A stretch of DNA of 64,000 nucleotides, from positions 21,174,979 to 21,238,978 of the forward strand of contig CM049321.1 of assembly GCA_026874595.1 (NCBI GenBank), in the 5' to 3' direction. The notes beneath the pieces were generated by a model, which was not told the origin of the DNA, made no database searches, and was given only the letters and a program-made list of their open reading frames with translations. Made by a program: the position numbers and the translations under genes. The stretch is from Sipunculus nudus. Taxonomy: Eukaryota; Annelida; Sipuncula; Golfingiida; Sipunculidae. Below, piece by piece: positions 2,049 through 36,300 of this stretch. The number at the start of each line of letters is the position of its first letter. Position 1 is the first letter of the stretch.

Positions 2049-5000
2049 TTAATTCTAACCCACACTCAGATTTTACATTTTAACCTGTTGGATTGCAGCA
2101 AACTGCAGGTGGATGTGTATACTGGCTGGTTGGGTAACTAAAAATTTTAAAAACAATTCATAAGTTATCTGTAAATGTTGATCCATCAAGCAGAAATGGA
2201 AAACTGAGGTTATCATTCTCATTAAATATCATATTTTGTTTTAAGTGTAAAATTTAACTCACTGAATAGCAGGGGGATATTTTCCTTTGACTTATTTCAT
2301 ATTGTCATAAAACAAATCATTTGAAAGCAATACCTTATTTGCTACAAATTGTTTATCTTAAAGGTACACAAACATTTTCTATATGTGTATAATCTCACAC
2401 CCTTAATTGATTTTGACTAAATGCTAATATTTCCAGGCAAAACCATCCCTACAAATGCACTTCCTGTCTCAAGTTACCTGTTCTATATGTTGTTTTGCGT
2501 AAATGTGCCACCTAATGGTAGTTGGTTACACTAACGCGCATTGTCTGTGTTTACGGTAATTACCGCTGTGTGTGTTTGCTTGGCATCATAAAAGCTCAAT
2601 CCTGTATAAGGACATTGTTGTTGTCTGTCGATTGGTCCAAGTGTGTCCCTTTATAATGACAAGACTGCGTGACCAGAGTTCGAATCTCTTGTATGCATGA
2701 TAACTTCCAAACAAGAAGAAGAAACATGAAAGAAGAAACTAGGAAGAAACACCAGTTTGAAGCTTGAAAAATCTTGTCTGGTGAAGTTCTGCCATACACC
2801 CATCAGGTGGCTGCCATGTTTGTTTAGTGCCACTGATCAAGCAAGATGCAAGTTTGTTTCCACTTGTGTACAATAGTTAACAGTTTCTGATTGAAATACT
2901 GGCAGATACCATATTATTTTTAGGGGAAATCACTTTAAAATGTACATGTATATATAACCTACTTTTTACCTTGTAAAGATCCCTTTAATATGATAATTTT
3001 TCCTTACGTACCATGGTTCTGAAGGATTTGTACCCATAAAGGGATATTTTCAGGTGTATTTGTACTTTCTCTGGGGAGTCGGACTTCAGCTGGAGGTAGT
3101 CCTGATATCTCCAGTGGTACAGGTTCTGTGAAGCTCTCATTTGCAAGGACACGCGGACCCACAAAAGGAATGAATTCCAGGTCTTCTCCTTCCAGTGTCT
3201 TTGGTATGGTTTCTGCTGGGTACAAAAATATATGTCACATTTAAAAGGGCCCAATCACCTATCTGACCTTTATAAACTTAAGGTAATCCCTTGGAGCTTT
3301 AATAAAAATAGGCCCTGAATACTTGAATACACTGCACATAGGCTACTTGTTTTGATAATATTGACGTGTTTATAATATAAGGGGGCCCGCCAAAATAATC
3401 AAACCAAATTCAACAAGGGCATTTGACAGCAAGTCAGATAAGCCAAAGTTTTGCAAATGTTTTTTTTTGTAAAAGTGACCTTTCTATCTCTACATATATG
3501 CAACCTACCACCTCAGGTTACATGTTTGTTTTCCATTTGACAACATTGATGTGTTTACAAACATGTTGTTGGTAAACAAGTTGATACATCCTTCACGAAT
3601 ACGTTATCAGAACTTTTCACAACCCAAATACCCTAAGATCATTAATATATACAAAAGGGAAGTCAGAAATTACATAAATTCCTTTCCCAAAGTTAGGTTA
3701 ATGGACAATATGAAAGTTTGATTGTAATTTGTACCTGCAGATCATATCATAGAAATCTCGAAGGGCCTGTTATACAGTCAAACTCCATTGTGAAAATGAA
3801 GTTCAACATAACCCACTTAGCAAAACAATAAAATTCAGCAATGGTGCAAGAAGTAGCTACCTCTGGTAGGGCTACTTGGGGGGGATGGGGTCGAGTACTC
3901 CAAGAATTGTACAACAAGTGCACACATGACAACTACCCACATTATAATTACATGGATCATAGAAGAATATTTCTCCAATACAACTCCTGACGCTGCACAC
4001 ATGACAACTGCCTACATGAAAATTGGGTGTAGAAAATTATAGCATTTGCTCAAACAACAATTACCTAGCAGATAACCACAGGCAAAATATTTGCTTTGAT
4101 TATAAATCTGTTTTATTGTTCTTTGCTTATATTTGAAGTATAAATGTCATATATAGATGTTATTTCCAGTGCAAAAACATATACATATGACAACACATAT
4201 CTATACCTATGGGCAGTTCACTGAGCAAGTACGTTGCTCACTTCCACAGTAAAGTCATAGCTACCCACCTTTAAAGAATCAAAGTCACAGCTGCCCAGCA
4301 CCTGCTGACCTCTACAGGAAAAGCTGCCAAGCAGCTGCCCACTTCCACAACACTGAAGTCCGAGCTGCCCAGCAGCTGCCCATTTCACAAGACAGAAGTG
4401 AGAGTTGCAAAGCAGCTGCCAACTTCCACAGGACGGAAGTCAGAGCTACCCAGCAGCTACCTACTTTCACAGGACAGACGTCAGATCTGCCCAGCAGCTG
4501 CCCACTTCCACAGGACTGACATCAGATCTACCAAGCAGCTGCCCACTTTCAGTCAAGACTGAAGTAAGATCTGCCCAGCAGCTGCCCACTTTCACAGGAC
4601 AAACGTCAGATCTACCAAGCACCTGTCCACTTTCAGTCAAGACTGAAGTAAGAGCTGCCCAGCAGCTGCCAACTTCCACAGGACTGACCTCAGATCTGCC
4701 CAGCAGCTGTCCACTTCCACAGGACCAAAGAAATAGCTGAATGCCCACTTTCATTGAATTAAAGTCAGACCTGCCCACAATCTGCCCACTACCCAATTTC
4801 ACACATATGCTCACCACATTTTTTATCAAGAAACAAATCATCACACCTGTGTCAAAGTTGTTGCCAAGAAATTCTTCTATTTGCCTGACCAAGTCTTGGC
4901 GTTTCATATATTCAAGCAGCTGTTTAACTAATTGCAGCATTTCTATTTCGTCTGGAATACGCTCTGTCAGATGCAGACACAAATCAGTGCGAAGTTTAAT

Positions 5001-5168
5001 TTCTTCAGACTCAGCCTTGGTCAGTTTCTTGTCAAACTGAAGAAAATATTTAAAAGCACTTATTTCATCTTCTGAGAGTGAATCACATACGTCATACAGC
5101 AATTTGGCTACAGCAGTTTTGTGTATCACGCCCCCTGTGGGCAGTTGATGACCGTACCCTTCGGCCAT
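929..5168 (-). CDS. Death-effector-domain protein, partial (runs off left edge)
   Basis: Three exons (5168-4847, 3215-3012, 1610-929) join in one frame and give about 400 residues with no stop. Residues about 20-105 form a death effector domain. Helices start at LLYDVCDSLS, and the late 'KRQDLVRQIEEFL' carries the R-x-D-L motif of the DED family, which includes FADD and caspase-8. DEDs mediate homotypic assembly of death-receptor complexes in the cytosol. Residues about 108-175 are acidic/Pro-rich, and the last 226 are Ser/Thr/Pro-rich and probably disordered. No second DED or caspase domain is visible; any would lie beyond base 1. The start at 5168 is the first ATG in frame (AATATGGCC, good +4 G). 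It could be a FADD-like adaptor or the N-terminus of a larger death or kinase protein, and I cannot decide which. Confidence 0.7.
2003..2046. repeat. (TA)n microsatellite in DED intron
   Basis: Uninterrupted TA dinucleotides of about 44 bases lie in the intron between the exons at 3012 and 1610. Confidence 0.95.
2625..2700 (+). repeat. tRNA-like SINE head
   Basis: The segment has a box-B-like 'gagttcgaatctc' at about 2677-2689 preceded by an A-box-like 'ttggtccaagtg'. The anticodon arm is not tRNA-like enough for a gene. It is probably the 5' part of a tRNA-derived SINE inside the DED intron. Confidence 0.4.
3012..3215 (-). CDS. DED gene exon 2
   Basis: Acceptor TTTGTACCCAG|CAGAAACC and strong donor AACCATG|GTACGTAAGG bound a 204-nt phase 1-1 exon. 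It encodes an acidic, Pro-rich linker of 68 residues containing 'GEDLEFIPFVGPRVLA' and 'PAEVRLPRES'. A related 'SPEVRLPQPSES' recurs in exon 3, suggesting a short repeated linker motif. Confidence 0.65.
4215..4800. repeat. 41-43 bp minisatellite, about 14 copies
   Basis: Degenerate tandem units share 'cagcagctgcccacttccacaggac' or the variant 'ctttcagtcaagactgaag', then 'cagatctgc'. The two unit types partly alternate between 4500 and 4680. The array lies entirely in intron 1 of the DED gene, starting about 50 bases after the donor at 4847. It creates long spurious open frames on both strands. Confidence 0.85.
4847..5168 (-). CDS. DED gene exon 1 (DED domain)
   Basis: Exon of 107 codons plus one base, ending at donor GACACAG|GTGTGATG (phase 1). 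It encodes the whole death effector domain. Reading past the donor enters the 41-43 bp minisatellite, which stays open by chance and mimics a longer protein. Confidence 0.7.
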
Positions 5169-5174
5169 ATTGGC

Positions 5175-5250
5175 CAACAGCAAAAACGTGACCCTCCGAC
5201 CTCAAATCTTACAATTGGTAGCCATGTCTTGACCACTAGATGGGTTATAA
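5175..5250 (-). repeat. tRNA-like SINE segment next to DED start codon
   Basis: On the minus strand the sequence reads 'ctagtggtcaagacatggctacca', then 'gaggtcggagggtc'. This looks like an A-box region and the start of a T-arm of a tRNA-derived SINE. The proposed ATG at 5168 follows within ten bases, so the 5' UTR of the DED gene may be SINE-derived. Confidence 0.45.
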
Positions 5251-11034: not shown

Positions 11035-11128
11035 TCCAGCTATTCAAGCAAGAGGACACTTTCGTCAATGCATTAATAAATGCCTCATCATGCCAATCGT
11101 CTTTGTGATTATGGGATAAAAATAAGTC

Positions 11129-12271
11129 ATGGAGTCCCCTCTGCAACTGACAGGGGGCAGCACCTGCGTTAAATGCTGTCAGAACAAAGCAAAACACGTG
11201 TATACACTTTTGATCTTGATGACAATAATTGGAACTATCGCCATGGTAACCACACGGAATGATGGTTATTTGTGGGTTTTGTCAGGAAACAGTGAAACCC
11301 AGGACAGTGGCGTGAATTCAGAAGGCGTAAAAATTGCAGGACAGTCCATTTCAGAAGAGACAACTGAGGAAACGAAAAATAAACATTATATAGAACATTC
11401 ACCTTCAAAAACACAGCTTAACAACAATGAAACTGTTAAAGGTACAACGACAGTGATTGAAGGAGACCCCGCTAGGCGGCGCCGTGATCGCGGGGAAAGA
11501 AAACAGCGACGGCCACAAGCTTTAATCATTGGAGCGATGAAATGTGGGACGTTCGCTCTGAAAACATTCATCACACTTAACAGAGAAGCACGGGCACCGC
11601 TAGCAGAAGTTAACTATTTTCATCAGCGTTATCACAAAGGCGACACCTGGTATCGACATGAAATGCCATATTCCTACGCTGACCAAATCACAATTGAAAA
11701 GTCTATATATTTTTATTCCCGAAGGGCCCCAGAGAGGATAAAAGATTACGACGCAAATATGAAGATTTTACTAATACTCTGCGACCCTGTGAAGCGCGTG
11801 GTCTCCCATTTTCTTAATGTACAAGAGAAAGGAAAAGTTCCACAAAATAGCACGGTGGAGGACTTTATCCTTCACCCTGGCACCAGAGAGCTTAATACAG
11901 ATTCAGAATTTATTCGCAACAGTATTTATTCAAATTATTTATCCAACTGGATCCGCCACCTTGGACGCGAAAGAATTCACATTGTGAGCGGAGAAAATAT
12001 AAAGACCGATCCCTTGCCAGAGCTTAACAAAGCGGAACAATTTCTGGGCCTCCGAAGTCGGATTACGGAAAGTAAACTGTATTTTGATAAGGAGAAGGGG
12101 TTCTTTTGTTATATCAGGAAGCAGAAAAAATGTCTTCCTAAAGGAAAGGGACGAGTGCACCCGAAACTTTCAGATAGTACATATAAGAAACTCGTCGATT
12201 TTTATGCTCCGTATAATGAGAAATTGTTTGAAATGATTGGTGAAAGATTTAACTGGACCATGAAGAGTTGA
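11129..12271 (+). CDS. Heparan-sulfate glucosamine 3-O-sulfotransferase-like protein
   Basis: Intronless 380-residue type II Golgi membrane protein. Residues 1-23 are cytosolic, 24-40 form a hydrophobic signal-anchor, a charged stem follows with a basic run at 116-128, and the sulfotransferase domain spans 129-378. The family transfers sulfate from PAPS to the 3-OH of glucosamine in heparan sulfate. Visible motifs are the 5'-phosphosulfate loop 'ALIIGAMKCGT' (Lys138), a putative catalytic Glu160 in 'AEVNYF', 'TIEKS' (Lys191), 'LLILCDPVKRVVSHF' (3'-phosphate site), and the conserved Cys327/Cys335 pair in 'GFFCYIRKQKKC'. The Arg of the usual LRDP is Cys218, and the usual RKGGT is MKCGT. Sequons are at Asn240 and Asn375. 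A 3' splice-like tttattttcag at 11034 suggests a non-coding 5' exon. Family assignment is firm; activity and substrate are not. Confidence 0.9.
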   Translation: MESPLQLTGGSTCVKCCQNKAKHVYTLLILMTIIGTIAMVTTRNDGYLWVLSGNSETQDSGVNSEGVKIAGQSISEETTEETKNKHYIEHSPSKTQLNNNETVKGTTTVIEGDPARRRRDRGERKQRRPQALIIGAMKCGTFALKTFITLNREARAPLAEVNYFHQRYHKGDTWYRHEMPYSYADQITIEKSIYFYSRRAPERIKDYDANMKILLILCDPVKRVVSHFLNVQEKGKVPQNSTVEDFILHPGTRELNTDSEFIRNSIYSNYLSNWIRHLGRERIHIVSGENIKTDPLPELNKAEQFLGLRSRITESKLYFDKEKGFFCYIRKQKKCLPKGKGRVHPKLSDSTYKKLVDFYAPYNEKLFEMIGERFNWTMKS

Positions 12272-21010: not shown

Positions 21011-21014
21011 CATT

Positions 21015-21422
21015 TGTTACGAAGACAAATTAGACAGGGGAAAGATTGGGCCGATCCCGGTTTCAAACCCATGTTGGTGGCGCACAAGTCGTACCAACCG
21101 CTTCGCTAGCAAAGCAAGTTTCACTAGCGAGACAGTTCGGTCCTCGTTTATGTCACCCCGTAACACATCCCCTCTTCGGAGCGTTCTGCTATCAGAACAA
21201 GACTAATAACCCCAGGAGTCACACCTTGGTGAGCTTATTTCCTGGGCCACAAAGTTTGCCGTCACGTTGGACGAGCCCCCATTTTGTTACGAAGACAAAT
21301 TAGTCAGGGGAAAACATTGGGCCGATCCCGGTTTTGAACAAGTCCGGCGTACCAACGCTTCGTTAGCAAAGCAAGCTTCCCTAGCGAGACAGTTCGGTCC
21401 GCTTTTATGTCACCCCGTAACA
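21015..21422 (-). mobile_element. Miniature LTR retrotransposon (TRIM-type), 408 bp
   Basis: Two direct repeats, 21015-21165 and 21285-21422, each start TGTTACGAAGACAAATTAG and end CACCCCGTAACA; they flank only 119 bases. The element is bounded by CATT at 21011-21014 and 21423-21426. Read on the minus strand, three bases after the first repeat comes TGGGGGCTCGTCC, matching the 3' end of tRNA-Pro as a primer-binding site. Just before the second repeat is the purine run GAAGAGGGGA, a polypurine tract. It has no coding capacity, so it is non-autonomous. (TRIM here means terminal-repeat retrotransposon in miniature, not the protein family.). Confidence 0.85.
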
Positions 21423-21923
21423 CATTACAGAAATTAGTTCAACGAAAAGTAAATTTTTGAAAACTGATCACATGAACACAATGTGGGTAAAATTTATTGA
21501 TTGCAACAACAGCCGTTCTTGAAAATTCTGCTTTATTTGTATTTTTGCCTTGACGAATCTTAACTTTTGAGGTGCTGAGACTTGTTTTCGCTTGATAAGA
21601 ATTACAGTTTCAATTGAAGTACAGTTTCAATTCTGTTCTAACTTTGTATGGTGACAGTTTGAAAGGAAAGGGGTCAATGAGTTGCCTTATTTTAATTTTA
21701 GAAACCAACACAGAATGCTTTTTATGCATTGATGGACTCTCAGAAAAATCTGGACTCTCATGTTTTTTGTAACATGCCCTCAGTATATTGGTTACCGTGA
21801 CTTCCAAAGATTTTTCCATGACCGCCTTGGATTTTTGTTTGAAGTTTCTCTAAGTAACTTAAAATTCTCTAACTTTTTTTCTTTAAAGCGGTCCTTATTA
21901 TTTTTTTTCAGGTACATTTGAAG

Positions 21924-22580
21924 ATGGATAAAATTTGCCACATCTGGGAAACATTCGATTCACAGAAAGGAAAATGGCGGAATAGCCGTAAGCGTCTGAT
22001 AAGTGCTATAAAGGAGATTGCTGCTGAACTAGAAGACCACGTTCGCAATGTCTATAAAGCGAAGCAGACCGGAGCTCGGTTGTCTGCGGTTGGCATTGGC
22101 ATTGCCGTAGGCGGGGCATTGGTTTTCCCACCAGCAGCTTTATTTGGAGTGGAATTGATTGCAGCAGGAGGCGCAACCAGTGCAGGAGCGTCCGTCGTCA
22201 AGAATATTATCGGCGTTGCAAAAGTACTTGCAGTCAAGGAACTTCTGAAGGATGAAGGGGTGCAGTTTGAGGTGTTGAAGACTTCATGGGAAATCATTCA
22301 AAGCACAGGAAGCGAACTTTTGAAGAGTATTCCAGATCCAGAGAATCTATCAGTGGAGAATATGGAAGAGTTTGCACTACTCTTTTTTAAAGTTGTCCCC
22401 ACTGATATTAACTTGGTACGTCTCGTGAAGAACATTTTGAAAACCATATCGGTCTCGAAGAAACTCGCTGGAAAAGATTTGTCACTCGCAGAGCGATGGG
22501 CAGGGTATGTGTCGCTGATGGAGTCGATTCCTGGTACCATCTCAAGTCTGACGGACTTCTTTGATGGCGGTTTTCGTTGA
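21924..22580 (+). CDS. Apolipoprotein L-like protein (frame breaks near C-terminus)
   Basis: 218 codons from ATG 21924. An acceptor ttttttttcag at 21911, 12 bases upstream, shows an earlier non-coding exon. Residues 20-47 are basic/amphipathic. Residues 50-97 are a long Gly/Ala-rich hydrophobic hairpin (GARLSAVGIGIAVGGALVF, then AAGGATSAGASVV), the hallmark of the ApoL family. The rest is amphipathic helices. Vertebrate ApoL proteins associate with lipid and membranes and some form channels; invertebrate roles are unknown. The frame ends at TGA 22578-22580, but a +1 frame directly continues for about 33 residues (DLFDASEYLSNLLERLNEEL, then an Asp-rich end) to TAG 22672-22674. This suggests a one-base indel at GGTTTTCG. 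It is either a recent pseudogene or a sequence error. Shorter than vertebrate ApoL (about 340). Confidence 0.75.
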   Translation: MDKICHIWETFDSQKGKWRNSRKRLISAIKEIAAELEDHVRNVYKAKQTGARLSAVGIGIAVGGALVFPPAALFGVELIAAGGATSAGASVVKNIIGVAKVLAVKELLKDEGVQFEVLKTSWEIIQSTGSELLKSIPDPENLSVENMEEFALLFFKVVPTDINLVRLVKNILKTISVSKKLAGKDLSLAERWAGYVSLMESIPGTISSLTDFFDGGFR

Positions 22581-22674: not shown

Positions 22675-23480
22675 GAGGGGTCTTGTGACGTCTCATCTGA
22701 TCAAATATGAGTATCTAAACGATCCTGTATAAAAAAAATGTACAACAAATGTGCATTAAAAACAATTTGAAATTATCAAAGTAAAGGACAAGGTAAAGTG
22801 ATTCATTTTGCAAATAATCAACTAGTTACCTTTAAGGCAACTGTTTGTGTTCACAAGAAATGGCTGACTGTAGTATGCAGTTTACAAATTTTTTACTCGT
22901 CTTTCTGGTAAAAATGTATTGTGCTCCTGAGTTACCGGCTCTCCTCGGACATCCAGAAGACATCCGGAGCGCTTTTACGTGTTCAACACACAAGCTGTCA
23001 GAGGAACGAATTCCATAGAACAATTTGAAAGCTTTCAGTAATCCTCCGTGATCCTTTGTACTAGTGTTTTGTATTTTGTACCCCTGGAACTTTGATTCTT
23101 GTATCGAATGAGTAATGTGCAAGCTACTGCGCTATTGTACATCGGTTTATTATTTTACTTGTTCAAGTATCAACATATTAAAGTATTTCTTTCCGTGATA
23201 TTGCTTAATATGTTATATACCTTTACCGATATGATAACATGGTTGTTATAATTATCAAAAGGCAATGAAGAAAATGTGGCCAAATGATGTACAGCATGTT
23301 CTCTCCTCTATATTCAGAATAAAGCAGCTTAAGCATGAACCTTTGCCTAAGCTTTTATGTATATAGATAGAATGTACCAAGTGGCATAGCTTAAATCTGC
23401 TTTTTTTTTTGGGTGGGGGGGGGGGGTACAAGTATGTGTATATGTGTATATTATAAGGAGGTGAATAGGAAGGAGAAACT
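22675..23480. other. 3' flank of ApoL-like gene
   Basis: ATTAAA at about 22756 may serve as poly(A) signal. A T/G homopolymer lies at 23401-23427. No further gene is supported; the minus-strand open frame at 22832-23122 has no recognisable features. Confidence 0.5.
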
Positions 23481-23484
23481 GTCT

Positions 23485-23600
23485 CACCATTGAAGCTTAC
23501 TTTTTGGTCGAATCGCTGGACTTGTGAGCCCACTGGTAATGGTTCGAATCGGGATCGACCCAACCAGGTCTATATTACCCCTGATAAGAAAACCTTTTAT
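23485..23600 (+). repeat. tRNA-like SINE segment
   Basis: The segment reads 'ttggtcgaatcgctggacttgtgagcccac' and then a consensus B box 'ggttcgaatcggg'. It cannot fold as a functional tRNA as read, so it is probably the head of a SINE. Confidence 0.4.
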
Positions 23601-25100
23601 TTGATGAAAGTCAACGTGACAAATTTTTTTCTCGTGTGGGAATGACGCCTGAATATGACGCCCACGGAAAGGTAGTTTGAGCCATAATTACCGCCACTTA
23701 ATTCACTTTATTCACCAAGTGTGACTCTTAGGATAATTGATTTATAATTAACCCCTTTTTGAAGCCGGAGCGCTTCCGAGAGGGGATGTAACAGGATACA
23801 TATAAAGGCGGACCTGTCCCACAATTAAAGCTTTCTTTTCTGGCGATACTGTTGATTGAAACGTCGCAGTTTTTTTTTTTTTTTTTTTTGCTAGTGGGAC
23901 AAAGGCCACAGTCTTGTGCGGGGCATACTTTTAGATAATGCATGAGGCATTTCCATGCAAATTGAATCCTGTGCCAAAAGTGACCAATAGGGGCAAAACA
24001 AGTGTGGGGACATACAAGTAAAACCTTCAAAAAATGTAAATGCGGTGTACATGTTAAAAAGGCAAAAGCAATCAAGAATTTTAAGAATATAATATGTGGA
24101 CCAGGGTATGAAATTTATTTGAAAATTTAAAGGCCATTTAGGCCCGTGTAATACTGGTCCGTATATTTTTGTTTCAAAATTAAAAAAAAATCGCGAAAAG
24201 CTAAAATATAGTTAACCATGCAAATATGATCTATTTGTGTAACGTTCACTGCCGAAAGCCTCGATGGTATTAATTTCTATTTGGTTTTGATTAAAAAAAC
24301 AGGTCACTTTTGTCCGTTATTCAGGGCCATATACTGGATCCCTCGCTTGATAATAATATAATAAAATAAATGTGTCGATCACAGACATGAACTATTTGTA
24401 TCTGATGGGTCATAGATCATACTCATATTTGTAAAATAACTTTCACGGACTTTAGATTGATTTCTCAATTCATTTTTCCAGACTGTTGTCACTTTCTTAA
24501 TTTTGAAAAATCCCCTTTCCTAGTCAGCTGCGCAAAATATTTGTGAAATAATGTACCAGGATATATACTAGAAAAAATATTTAATTCCACGACAGGCACG
24601 GTGCCTAGCTCGGAACACATTTTATTTTTTCTTAAATTAATGACAGAGCGAGCAATGTTGAATTGCATCCTGTCTACTTCTCCACATGAAACACGTGCGG
24701 TTTTGAAATATCATTCTTATTAAAAACAAGGGTCACAGGTATAATTTAAACGATACTAATCAAATAAAATGAATTTACGTTAACAAAGGTAGTTAAAACG
24801 AAACACTACATAAAAAGATGCGCGGTTGCTTAAAGTTATCTGATCAGTTCTGGCCGGTAAAGACACCATCGTCAGAAACCAGTCTGCCCCTAAAACCCTG
24901 TTGTGGTCGTTACAGAACCGAAAGAATTGCGCAATAACAAACATTTGATGTGTGGGGATCGTGCACCAGACATCGTCAGTTGCATTATATAGCCCTGCGT
25001 CATTTGCTTATACTCACTGTGTCGGGGATCTGAGCTGAAAAAAAATAAACATTCATAACAACCGACGCGATATCAGTGAACATTTCCCCGCCAAATTGTC
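23601..25100. other. Intergenic
   Basis: A T homopolymer lies at 23871-23889; the rest is AT-rich unique sequence. No gene is supported. Confidence 0.5.
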
Positions 25101-32342: not shown

Positions 32343-33373
32343 GTAAAAGCGAACTTCAGAGATGGCGACTGCTGGGAAAGATTCCTTAGCAAATTACAAT
32401 AAACTCCTGGAGTGTCCAATATGCTTCACATCAATGGTTACCCTGAAACCGCGAGCCTTGGCCTGCCTACACACGTTTTGTGAAACATGCCTCGAGCGAA
32501 TAGCGGAAGGGGAATCCCAGATCTGCTGCCCAACCTGCCGGAAGTACACGTCACTTCCGGCGAAAGGAGTTGAAGCACTTCCGGTCAATTTCTTTATCAG
32601 CCAGCTATCAACCTGTCCTCCCTCGAGTACGGAAGTGGCTTGCACAATATGCTCTACGGATGGCAAAGGGTTTGAAGCCGCCAGGGGGCGGTGCACCCAT
32701 TGCGACTGTTCACTTTGCGACACGTGTATAGCCCGACATTTGACACTTGAAGCCTACGCTGATCATGAGATCACCAACATTGAATATTATCATGAAAAGA
32801 ATACAACCACATGTGAAAAACACCAGGTTACAGTTACACTTTACTGTAAAACATGTAAGGAATACCTATGTTTTAAATGTGGTCTTGAGAAGAAACATAC
32901 AGGTCACGAGTACGCACTGGAAAATGCAGGCAAAGCGCTTGAGCGAGAAACTGAAACTTTAAGTGATAAGGTTTCTGCTTTTAATCTTAAACTGGATGAG
33001 GAAGTGGGAGCTTGCGATGAAGAACTTGAAAGATGCAACAGAGTAGAAGAAACAATTAAGATAGAAGGGGATAAACGAAAACAGATGATAGACGAAGAGG
33101 TTGAGAAGTTGATTTCAAGCATACATCTTTCCAACAAAGTACCCGTATCACAAGCACGTAAAAGAGTGTCTGTTATCATAAGTGAGTTACAGCAGGAAAG
33201 TCGGCTCGATCCTGGTATTCTAAAGACAAAGAACAGTATAAAAGAGATACAGCAAGCTAATGAGAGGTTCGAAGTTATACAGGAGAAGTTCAACAATTTA
33301 TGTAACTGGCGGGCGAAAAGTTTACAATTTGTTGCCGCAACAACCGACATACAGGTTGGGAATCTTGACGCAG
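32343..33373 (+). CDS. RING/B-box gene, main exon
   Basis: Acceptor ...ctctttgtccag|GTAAAAGCG precedes ATG 32362, and donor GACGCAG|GTAAGC ends the exon in phase 1. All zinc ligands of the RING and B-boxes are on this exon. It shows no frameshift or internal stop and so looks functional. Confidence 0.9.
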
Positions 33374-36300
33374 GTAAGCTTAATGCATTATTTATTTTCA
33401 TGTGGTAAAACATAGCTCATATGCTGTGTATAATGACAAAAGCAAAAAAAATGTACATTGAATCAAATATACTTTATCATAATATATTGACTTCCATTTT
33501 ATATGAAACGATTTGGTCAAGTAAAGAGGGACCTTCTTGATTTACTTGTACCATTGTTTAAAAATATTCTAACCCATTGGAGTCTTATTAAGTTATATTT
33601 AAGGGAAGTAGATAAGTAGCTTTTTACTTAAGCAAAATAGAAAAAAACTTTATCTGACCATTTCTTGAAATGTACTTGTACGTAAGTGCATGGTTCGCTA
33701 GCAAGGGTAGTAAACAATTATAGGACAAGTACTGGAACATTTTTGTTTGGTACTAGTTCATGAACAAGTACATGGTTAACAATTCATACCTAAAACTGTA
33801 ATAGAGCATTGTTCACATGGCAGTGACATCAATTAGATATACTCCTGAAATAACCTGGTCGAGGATGTAAAATTTACCATCAGAATTTACATTATGTTCT
33901 TTCACGATAATAAAGGCCCTCTTTATTCCGATCGGCAACTGTTCAATCCGTCTCTTCAGGGTCCAGGGCGAAACTAAAACGTTTTAGGCAACACTTTTTT
34001 GTACCTAAGTGTCACCTCAAATTCTGCTCAGATAACTGTTTATTTCGTCCTTTGACGCGTCATGGTAGGTCTTAAAAGGAGTTTTGGAGGAAATGAAATA
34101 TAAAAATAAAACTGATATAATGACATTTAATCAACCGATATTGAGATATTTCTAAAAATATACAATGGACTATATATCTGTTGTTACTTAACGAGAATTA
34201 GAAATAAATTAAAAGAGGAAGACCTATGGGGGAGTATAAAGCTTCTTTGTATATTGCAATGGATGAATGTTTCACTATTCTAATAACAGGTTAACTTCTT
34301 CTATACACAGCAAATGTTGAAGGAAGAAGTTTACGCGGAGGAACCAATGGACAGCATGGTTTGCAAGATGGTAAGATAAGCCTGCAGGTAAAATGAAATT
34401 ACTTATTATCCACGTATTAAATACAACTACCTTGACGTTTTAATTGTTATAGGAATGGCCAATATTAACCCTTTCCTGTTAAATTTATTATAGACTTCCG
34501 ACAAATTCTGACACTATTTTAATTTACACTAACAGCAATATCTTTTTAAGCTTTTTTGTATCTTTATCAAATTTTTAACAGTTCCAACTAAGAGGGTTTG
34601 CTAAAGATTATTGAAAATCATTGAAACTTAAAAAGTAAAATGCAATATTCTTGTCCTGAAAGAATCTATACATATCATGGCATTCTAGTTGCCCATTTTG
34701 AGTGCTCTTTAGTGGCTTGTAAACATTAAAGGGTTAATGCTATAATAGAAAAAATGTACACCAATGGTACAAAAACAAACTTAAAAATGTACTTCACCTG
34801 GACAAGGATCCATGGCAATGGTTTTGAATAATATTGTGCTGTCTAATCATACTTTTGTAATGGCGATACGGTAGCAGCCGACCCCAGTTGGTTACACGTT
34901 ACACCAAGATATAGTACATGAGATGCACGGGATGTCATAGAGACAAATTTGACAACTTTATTTTATTATTGTAGATTACCCGTGCTTGGACAACATGGCG
35001 TCTGTCACGTCTGTAGATCATCAGATACATGAAGGTGAATAAAAGTTTATATTAATGGTTTTATTTATTTATTTATTTTTTTGACGGGGCACGTATTCCA
35101 GAATTTCTGGAAGGGTTCTTTGACCTGACGCCTGGCAAATTCACTGATATATTTACATTTGATAACAAATAGTATTTATTAAGACCCGTTATTCATGCAA
35201 CGGAATATCCTTCAAATGTTACTTCCTACAAAACTGTCTTCATGGCATGTATCTCTGTTTGTTATTAAGAATACCAATGTTAAATTTTACAAAGGAATCC
35301 TCAACGTATGCAAGGTTATTTGTTGAAAAGAATGTAATTTTTGCCTCATTGGCCACTCTAGCATCCATAGTCCTAATTATGTTTCTATGCATAGTTTCAC
35401 GGCGGGGCCGAAGAGGAGTGAGAGGAACCAGGAGTGAGTATAATTTTTATTTACAAATGTGTATCTCCTTGGTCATAATAAATTGTACAGATAAGAAAAA
35501 ATAACATCACACAACATTACCAACACAACCTTACGTGGTAGTCCACTTGGCGGTAAACTAACGTCCCTTAACACGCGTGCTAACAGCTGACAGATACAAA
35601 CCATAAGCTTTCACCAGTGTATTGGTAATGATAGGGGAACCTGGATGGCATAATTTTGTTTTTCCTCTCATGATTACACGACATATAAAGTTGATTAGAA
35701 ATATGTCTGTAAATTCTGTTATAAAAATTTATGTAGATGTTTGTAGGACTAGCCATCTCGATCATAAACATTAATATGTTTTAATTAAGGCAACGAAGAA
35801 AGACTATGTTTGCTAAGAGAATAAATGCTACGGGTCACATTTGAAGTCGTCTCGTAACACTTGATAAATGTGTGAGAACGAAAATAGCATTGTAAATGAA
35901 TCATCAAGATGCAACTGATAAGAGGCAACAGGAAAAAAAGAATTTAAAACGAGGCAGCAACTTTCATTTACTTAGGTGCAGACATACCATTTTCTCGTAT
36001 TGTTTGTTTACATTTTATGATAAAATATACTGTTAGAAAATAATAATTTTAACTGATTTTACCTTTAGTATTATATTCAGCCACACAAATGTCTCAAAGA
36101 GTCTGAAGCTTTTAAAGATACCGTCAGATGAGTACAAAAGGTCTGTGTAAATTAAAATATCTGCGTCGCAGATAGTGAGCAAAGCCAATATAGTGTACCT
36201 TTGCATATGTGAAAACTGTCTATATCGATCTGAATGCTTCGTTAGGCTAAAACAATTATTTACGTCAGTAAGCTGCATTTCGTGGATTTTTTTTAATTTG

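Follow-up and report, generated by a model that had tools for sequence, protein, structure and literature searches.

The 64,000-nucleotide stretch of the Sipunculus nudus genome analyzed here (GenBank assembly GCA_026874595.1, contig CM049321.1, positions 21,174,979 to 21,238,978 of the forward strand; this whole stretch is referred to as the window) carries on its minus strand, at window positions 21015..21422, a 408-bp element that we identify with high confidence as a decayed copy of a terminal-repeat retrotransposon in miniature (TRIM) of the Helenus type. Helenus elements are TRIMs whose long terminal repeat (LTR) contains a tRNA-like sequence, for which an intact tRNA is not required (Kojima 2024, PMC10886601; this and the other papers cited are drawn on through extracts of their text). 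The identification is based on paired LTRs, a tRNA-Pro primer site, a polypurine tract, 4-bp target-site duplications, many copies in the genome, and a tRNA-like LTR segment with both boxes of an RNA polymerase III promoter. The element is real and is a further example of a class already described; its fit was judged against the class description, and no family name is given. The initial annotation of the window, made from the sequence alone, had recognized a non-autonomous LTR retrotransposon of miniature size that has a primer site, a polypurine tract and duplications of 4 bp, and this view is upheld. Its remark that such elements have seldom been noted in molluscs no longer holds, since biv-TRIM is known from 11 bivalve species (Satovic et al. 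2019, PMC6934838) and 51 Helenus families have been described in bivalves, with others in further organisms (PMC10886601).

Anatomy of the window copies

The element, here termed copy A, was delimited by its repeat anatomy and by comparison with further copies in its own genome. The coordinates, the direct repeats of 151 and 138 bp with TG...CA ends, the 119-bp core between them and the CATT flanks given in the initial annotation all proved accurate, as did the tRNA-Pro-type primer site three bases after one LTR and the tract before the other. Read on the minus strand, and with the LTRs defined by their alignment, copy A consists of a 5' LTR of 138 bp (21285..21422), the core (21166..21284) and a 3' LTR of 151 bp (21015..21165). 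Both LTRs have the ends TGTTACG...CGTAACA. The core starts with AAA-TGGGGGCTCGTCC, continues with a unique part and closes with GAAGAGGGGA-TG. The primer-binding site TGGGGGCTCGTCC (21269..21281) is located 3 bases past the 5' LTR and agrees with the complement of the tRNA-Pro 3' end at 13/13 nt, whereas nine other tRNAs agree at 3 nt each; ARAGORN read each of the tRNA sequences compared as the expected tRNA. The polypurine tract GAAGAGGGGA (21168..21177) is located 2 bases ahead of the 3' LTR, and the form AAGAGGGG is frequent in other copies. The target-site duplication CATT is present on the left at 21011..21014 and on the right at 21423..21426, and appears as AATG on both sides when read on the minus strand. 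No reading frame of at least 150 aa in the list of open reading frames (ORFs) of the window overlaps copy A. TRIMs are shorter than 1000 bp, have repeats of about 100-250 bp and have no coding capacity; copy A agrees in all three respects, and, as is likewise expected of a TRIM, a primer site follows its 5' LTR and a polypurine tract precedes its 3' LTR.

The two LTRs of copy A differ by 9 substitutions in 133 aligned columns and by gaps of 17 nt, 4 nt and two single bases. The 17-nt gap is in the tRNA-like part of the 5' LTR, relative to the 3' LTR of the same element. Because of these substitutions and gaps the insertion is not recent, and copy A is one old, decayed copy. The window contains another, diverged member of this kind, copy B, on the plus strand at about 23454..23874 (nhmmer E 1.8e-13); it comprises an LTR, a core and part of a 3' LTR. 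It is about 2 kb from copy A and in the opposite orientation, with its 3' LTR incomplete.

Copies across the genome

The S. nudus genome was searched in full (1.43 Gb in 153 contigs, of which C1-C17 are of chromosome size and sum to about 1.40 Gb). With the complete element as query, the best 40 of 3316 first-look candidates were scored; the search returned at least 51 matches, of which 41, the window copy included, span the whole of positions 1-408. A lack of other copies, or repeats dispersed without the core, had been named in the initial annotation as arguments against the element, and neither is what the genome holds. Thirty-nine loci were fetched, giving 40 rows with the window copy, and 9 arrays were set aside to leave 31 single elements, the query-chosen sample. 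An exact 4-bp duplication flanks 18/31 of these (window copy included), and 8 more have one mismatch, while shuffled pairing of the flanks gave a mean of 1.6 exact matches and a maximum of 7 in 2000 shuffles. Exact 5-bp duplications were found in none of the 31. The left flank of L015, one of these single elements, resembles a polypurine tract, and L015 may be a member of an array. The primer site is exact in 19/31 and within one mismatch in 28/31, and AAGAGGGG precedes the 3' LTR in 29/31.

The query itself has a gap in its 5' LTR; the search was therefore repeated with the core alone, giving a sample chosen blind to the LTRs. This search yielded at least 40 matches among 551 candidates. After removal of the query's own place and one already sampled, 40 places were reduced to 38, which correspond to 35 loci; 16 complete single elements were kept, and 19 loci were dropped as incomplete or arrayed, with LTRs shortened or missing on either side. 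Exact 4-bp duplications flank 12/16 and duplications with one mismatch another 3 (shuffled mean 1.6, maximum 7 in 5000 shuffles). Two of the 12, L074 and L075, lie 53 kb apart and share their duplication, as if a single event had been duplicated. The primer site is within one mismatch in 14/16 and the AAGAGGGG tract is present in 15/16. Further copies with 4-bp duplications, to which the initial annotation had pointed as a check, are therefore found in both samples, and together with the CATT pair of the window copy they agree with the 4-bp target duplications reported for Helenus in animals (PMC10886601). In the LTR-blind sample the LTRs have a median length of 156 bp (range 121-175), and the core has a median of 119 bp (118-120). 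No copies were present in 16 stretches of 10 kb taken at round coordinates, and there were no matches in viral contigs searched by pattern or in phage records.

The family also forms tandem arrays of LTRs and cores. Two of these, L020 (C15:18820000-18822200) and L025 (C15:18891000-18893200), have five LTRs and four cores each; they are inverted relative to each other at a distance of about 71 kb, agree closely in unit lengths and have identical flanking letters, as if one array had undergone an inverted duplication. Such arrays are what one would cite for reading copy A as two dispersed repeats or a fragment of a tandem repeat rather than one insertion; this reading is refuted, its probability negligible, by the single copies, common in the genome and including the window copy, in which two LTRs enclose a core and the 4-bp flanks match. 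Arrays and general anatomy are also shared with biv-TRIM, and one might ask whether the element is that family. The published description of biv-TRIM gives repeats of 202-218 bp, a core of 77-80 bp and mostly a GGGGAGA tract, and its extracts report no clear primer site and mention no tRNA-type promoter (PMC6934838); the present family, with its median LTR of 156 bp, core of 119 bp, clear primer site and AAGAGGGG tract, is very improbably the same. AT runs were observed on both sides of L011, L013, L018, L019 and L043, and the 4-bp duplication is ATAT in L068, L076 and L092; AT repeats may be a favoured target.

In the query-chosen sample, gaps of 4 nt or more were found in the 5' LTR of 26/34 elements and in the 3' LTR of 4/34. 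Among the 16 complete single elements of the LTR-blind sample, 5' gaps were found in 4 and 3' gaps in 4. Eighteen elements with a short 5' LTR were rescored in a BLAST-like manner; the same elements with the short LTR moved to the 3' position scored about 42 raw points lower, and with two full LTRs they would score about 10 higher. We put the asymmetry down to an ascertainment bias of the search. A deletion mechanism specific to the 5' LTR, by skipping of a DNA hairpin at the last step of reverse transcription, was considered and rejected, since the excess is gone in the LTR-blind sample. Microhomology at 22 gaps of at least 7 nt in 5' LTRs of the biased sample averaged 1.2, against a comparison value of 0.7.

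The distance between the two LTRs of one element was 0.100 in the query-biased sample, against 0.120 for unrelated LTRs, and the nearest LTR was the element's own partner in 9/34; in the LTR-blind sample the corresponding values were 0.102, 0.143 and 10/16. Some single copies have different variants in their two LTRs. Many insertions might have been built from two different RNAs through intermolecular plus-strand transfer, so that their LTRs represent differing subfamily variants; we regard this as distinctly unlikely and rank it low, as age and gene conversion explain the differences between LTR pairs at least as well. Were it true, LTR divergence would be the wrong clock for such elements.

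The tRNA-like segment of the LTR

Both strands of the window were scanned for pairs of box A and box B, using a consensus for each box and a start-to-start spacing of 31-60. The best two pairs in the window, each scoring 15/16, are at homologous places in the 3' LTR of copy A and the 5' LTR of copy B. The first consists of a box A-like TAGCGAAGCGG at 21098..21108 (7/7 specified positions) and a box B-like GGTTTGAAACC at 21059..21069 (8/9 specified positions), both on the minus strand; the second consists of TGGTCGAATCG and GGTTCGAATCG, between 23505 and 23551 on the plus strand. Shuffling the respective LTRs 2000 times gave such a score twice for the first and once for the second. Scores of 15-16/16 are found in 61/92 genomic LTRs, commonly with box A TAGCGAAGCGG and box B GGTTCGAA(T/A)CC placed 43 nt apart. 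Among the LTRs of the LTR-blind sample, 25/32 score 15-16/16, and the spacing is 43 in 20 of those 25. The family has the tRNA-derived boxes A and B that characterize Helenus LTRs; in the window copy they are confined to the 3' LTR.

Alignment of the LTR-blind LTRs to tRNAs gave mean scores of 28.4 in sense, 24.6 in antisense and 20.8 after shuffling. For 23/32 the score was reached by at most 3/60 shuffles, and for 14 by none. The best-aligned tRNA was tRNA-Thr in 15/32 (two of the ten tRNAs offered) and tRNA-Pro in 8/32. Several results weigh against the Helenus reading: the boxes of the 5' LTR of copy A score 13/16, which is at chance level (154/2000 shuffles); 9/32 LTR-blind LTRs were reached by more than 3/60 shuffles in the tRNA alignment; the LTRs of the window copy have no significant alignment to tRNAs; ARAGORN finds no intact tRNA at any of 36 loci or in the window; and Rfam gives no tRNA match in the window, the copy B LTR or 14 loci. 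The same Rfam searches gave no 5S match, and in the 14 loci none of the 23 matches up to E 10 reached the cut-off of its own Rfam family, the best of them being on AT repeats.

That neither ARAGORN nor Rfam recognizes a tRNA would suit an ordinary TRIM transcribed from an RNA polymerase II promoter, its tRNA-like stretch being no more than the inactive remains of an inserted short interspersed element (SINE); this would leave the anatomy unchanged and concerns the mechanism. We consider it rather unlikely, in view of the near-consensus boxes, commonly at 43-nt spacing, in the 61 and 25 LTRs counted above and also in the diverged copy B; in an informal argument, the boxes of a relic would be expected to decay as fast as their surroundings. 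With respect to a promoter of RNA polymerase III type, the tRNA-like part of the 5' LTR of copy A is damaged and much of the promoter is lost. The initial annotation had credited the element with all cis signals: this is correct for the primer site, the tract and the duplications, but it overlooked the tRNA-like LTR promoter. Since this segment of the 5' LTR is damaged, copy A is probably immobile now.

Candidate helper, proposed mechanism and relation to known elements

For its mobility the TRIM probably relies on a larger retrotransposon, and for animal Helenus elements movement by Gypsy elements with the same primer has been proposed (PMC10886601). An LTR end, a spacer and an 18-nt tRNA-Pro primer site follow one another at 109 + 109 places on the two strands of the genome, and nowhere in a reversed control. 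Two such places, L099 and L100, were examined. L100 looks like a decayed TRIM of this kind. L099 has TAACA, 3 nt and the 18-nt tRNA-Pro primer site, followed, as distinct from the TRIM, by coding frames, which are gag- and pol-like. In its pol frame, the last 132 aa read are similar to reverse transcriptases in PDB, including that of Ty3 (E 2.3e-12). Pfam returned nothing for this reverse-transcriptase piece. L099 is a candidate helper of the Ty3/Gypsy type, as judged from its sequence, and nothing more. The initial annotation had suggested looking for a large driver element with the same LTR ends; L099 answers to this in its TAACA end, whereas its LTR, seen in part, shows no visible likeness to that of the TRIM beyond it. 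The Gypsy element Gypsy-13_CGi also has a tRNA-Pro primer site (PMC10886601), and L099 shares with the TRIM the TAACA end and 3-nt spacing besides. As a separate observation, the pol frame of L099 (L099:1405-3000) has a Pfam MYND finger above the cut-off near its start and a second zinc-binding family below the cut-off. A MYND finger in a Ty3/Gypsy pol frame is, to our knowledge, unusual.

We consider it probable overall that the family moves by RNA polymerase III transcription with the aid of a Ty3/Gypsy helper. Transcription would begin near position 45 of the 5' LTR, a short way ahead of its box A; the polymerase would pass the TTTT signal there and terminate only at the TTTT that follows box B in the 3' LTR, yielding a short RNA whose two ends repeat each other. 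The proteins would come from a Ty3/Gypsy helper, which would also package this RNA; tRNA-Pro would prime reverse transcription and the polypurine tract would prime the second strand. Before integration, the integrase would trim the few bases between LTR and primer site or tract from each end, and the 2-3 bases that separate the LTRs from the primer site and the tract fit such trimming. Transcription of Helenus by RNA polymerase III is described as unproven in the extracts of Kojima 2024 (PMC10886601).

Elsewhere in the window, a 235-aa ORF without a Pfam match (21873-22580) is about 0.5 kb from copy A; it looks apolipoprotein L-like. Other frames include one with a sulfotransferase domain (11126-12271), one with RING and B-box domains (32347-33408) and one with a match to the death effector domain below the Pfam cut-off (4467-5201).

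Among known elements, the zebrafish Helenus family LTR-11_DR has reported tandem arrays (PMC10886601), as has the present family, in which, as a difference from Helenus, ARAGORN predicts no intact tRNA. Cassandra of plants and Ajax of nemerteans are likewise TRIMs with an LTR promoter derived from a small RNA, and Cassandra also forms tandem arrays (PMC7215508); their promoters derive from 5S rRNA, whereas that of the present family is tRNA-like. A search of one paper library on Helenus retrotransposons and tRNA yields a single bioinformatic paper (Kojima 2024), and our analysis adds to the class a repetitive family whose tRNA-type promoter is close to consensus, together with a sample of its genomic copies. 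Families of this type can inflate tRNA counts in genome annotation, as in rust fungi (PMC10886601). If transcription by RNA polymerase III is true, the family would be an animal counterpart of Cassandra.
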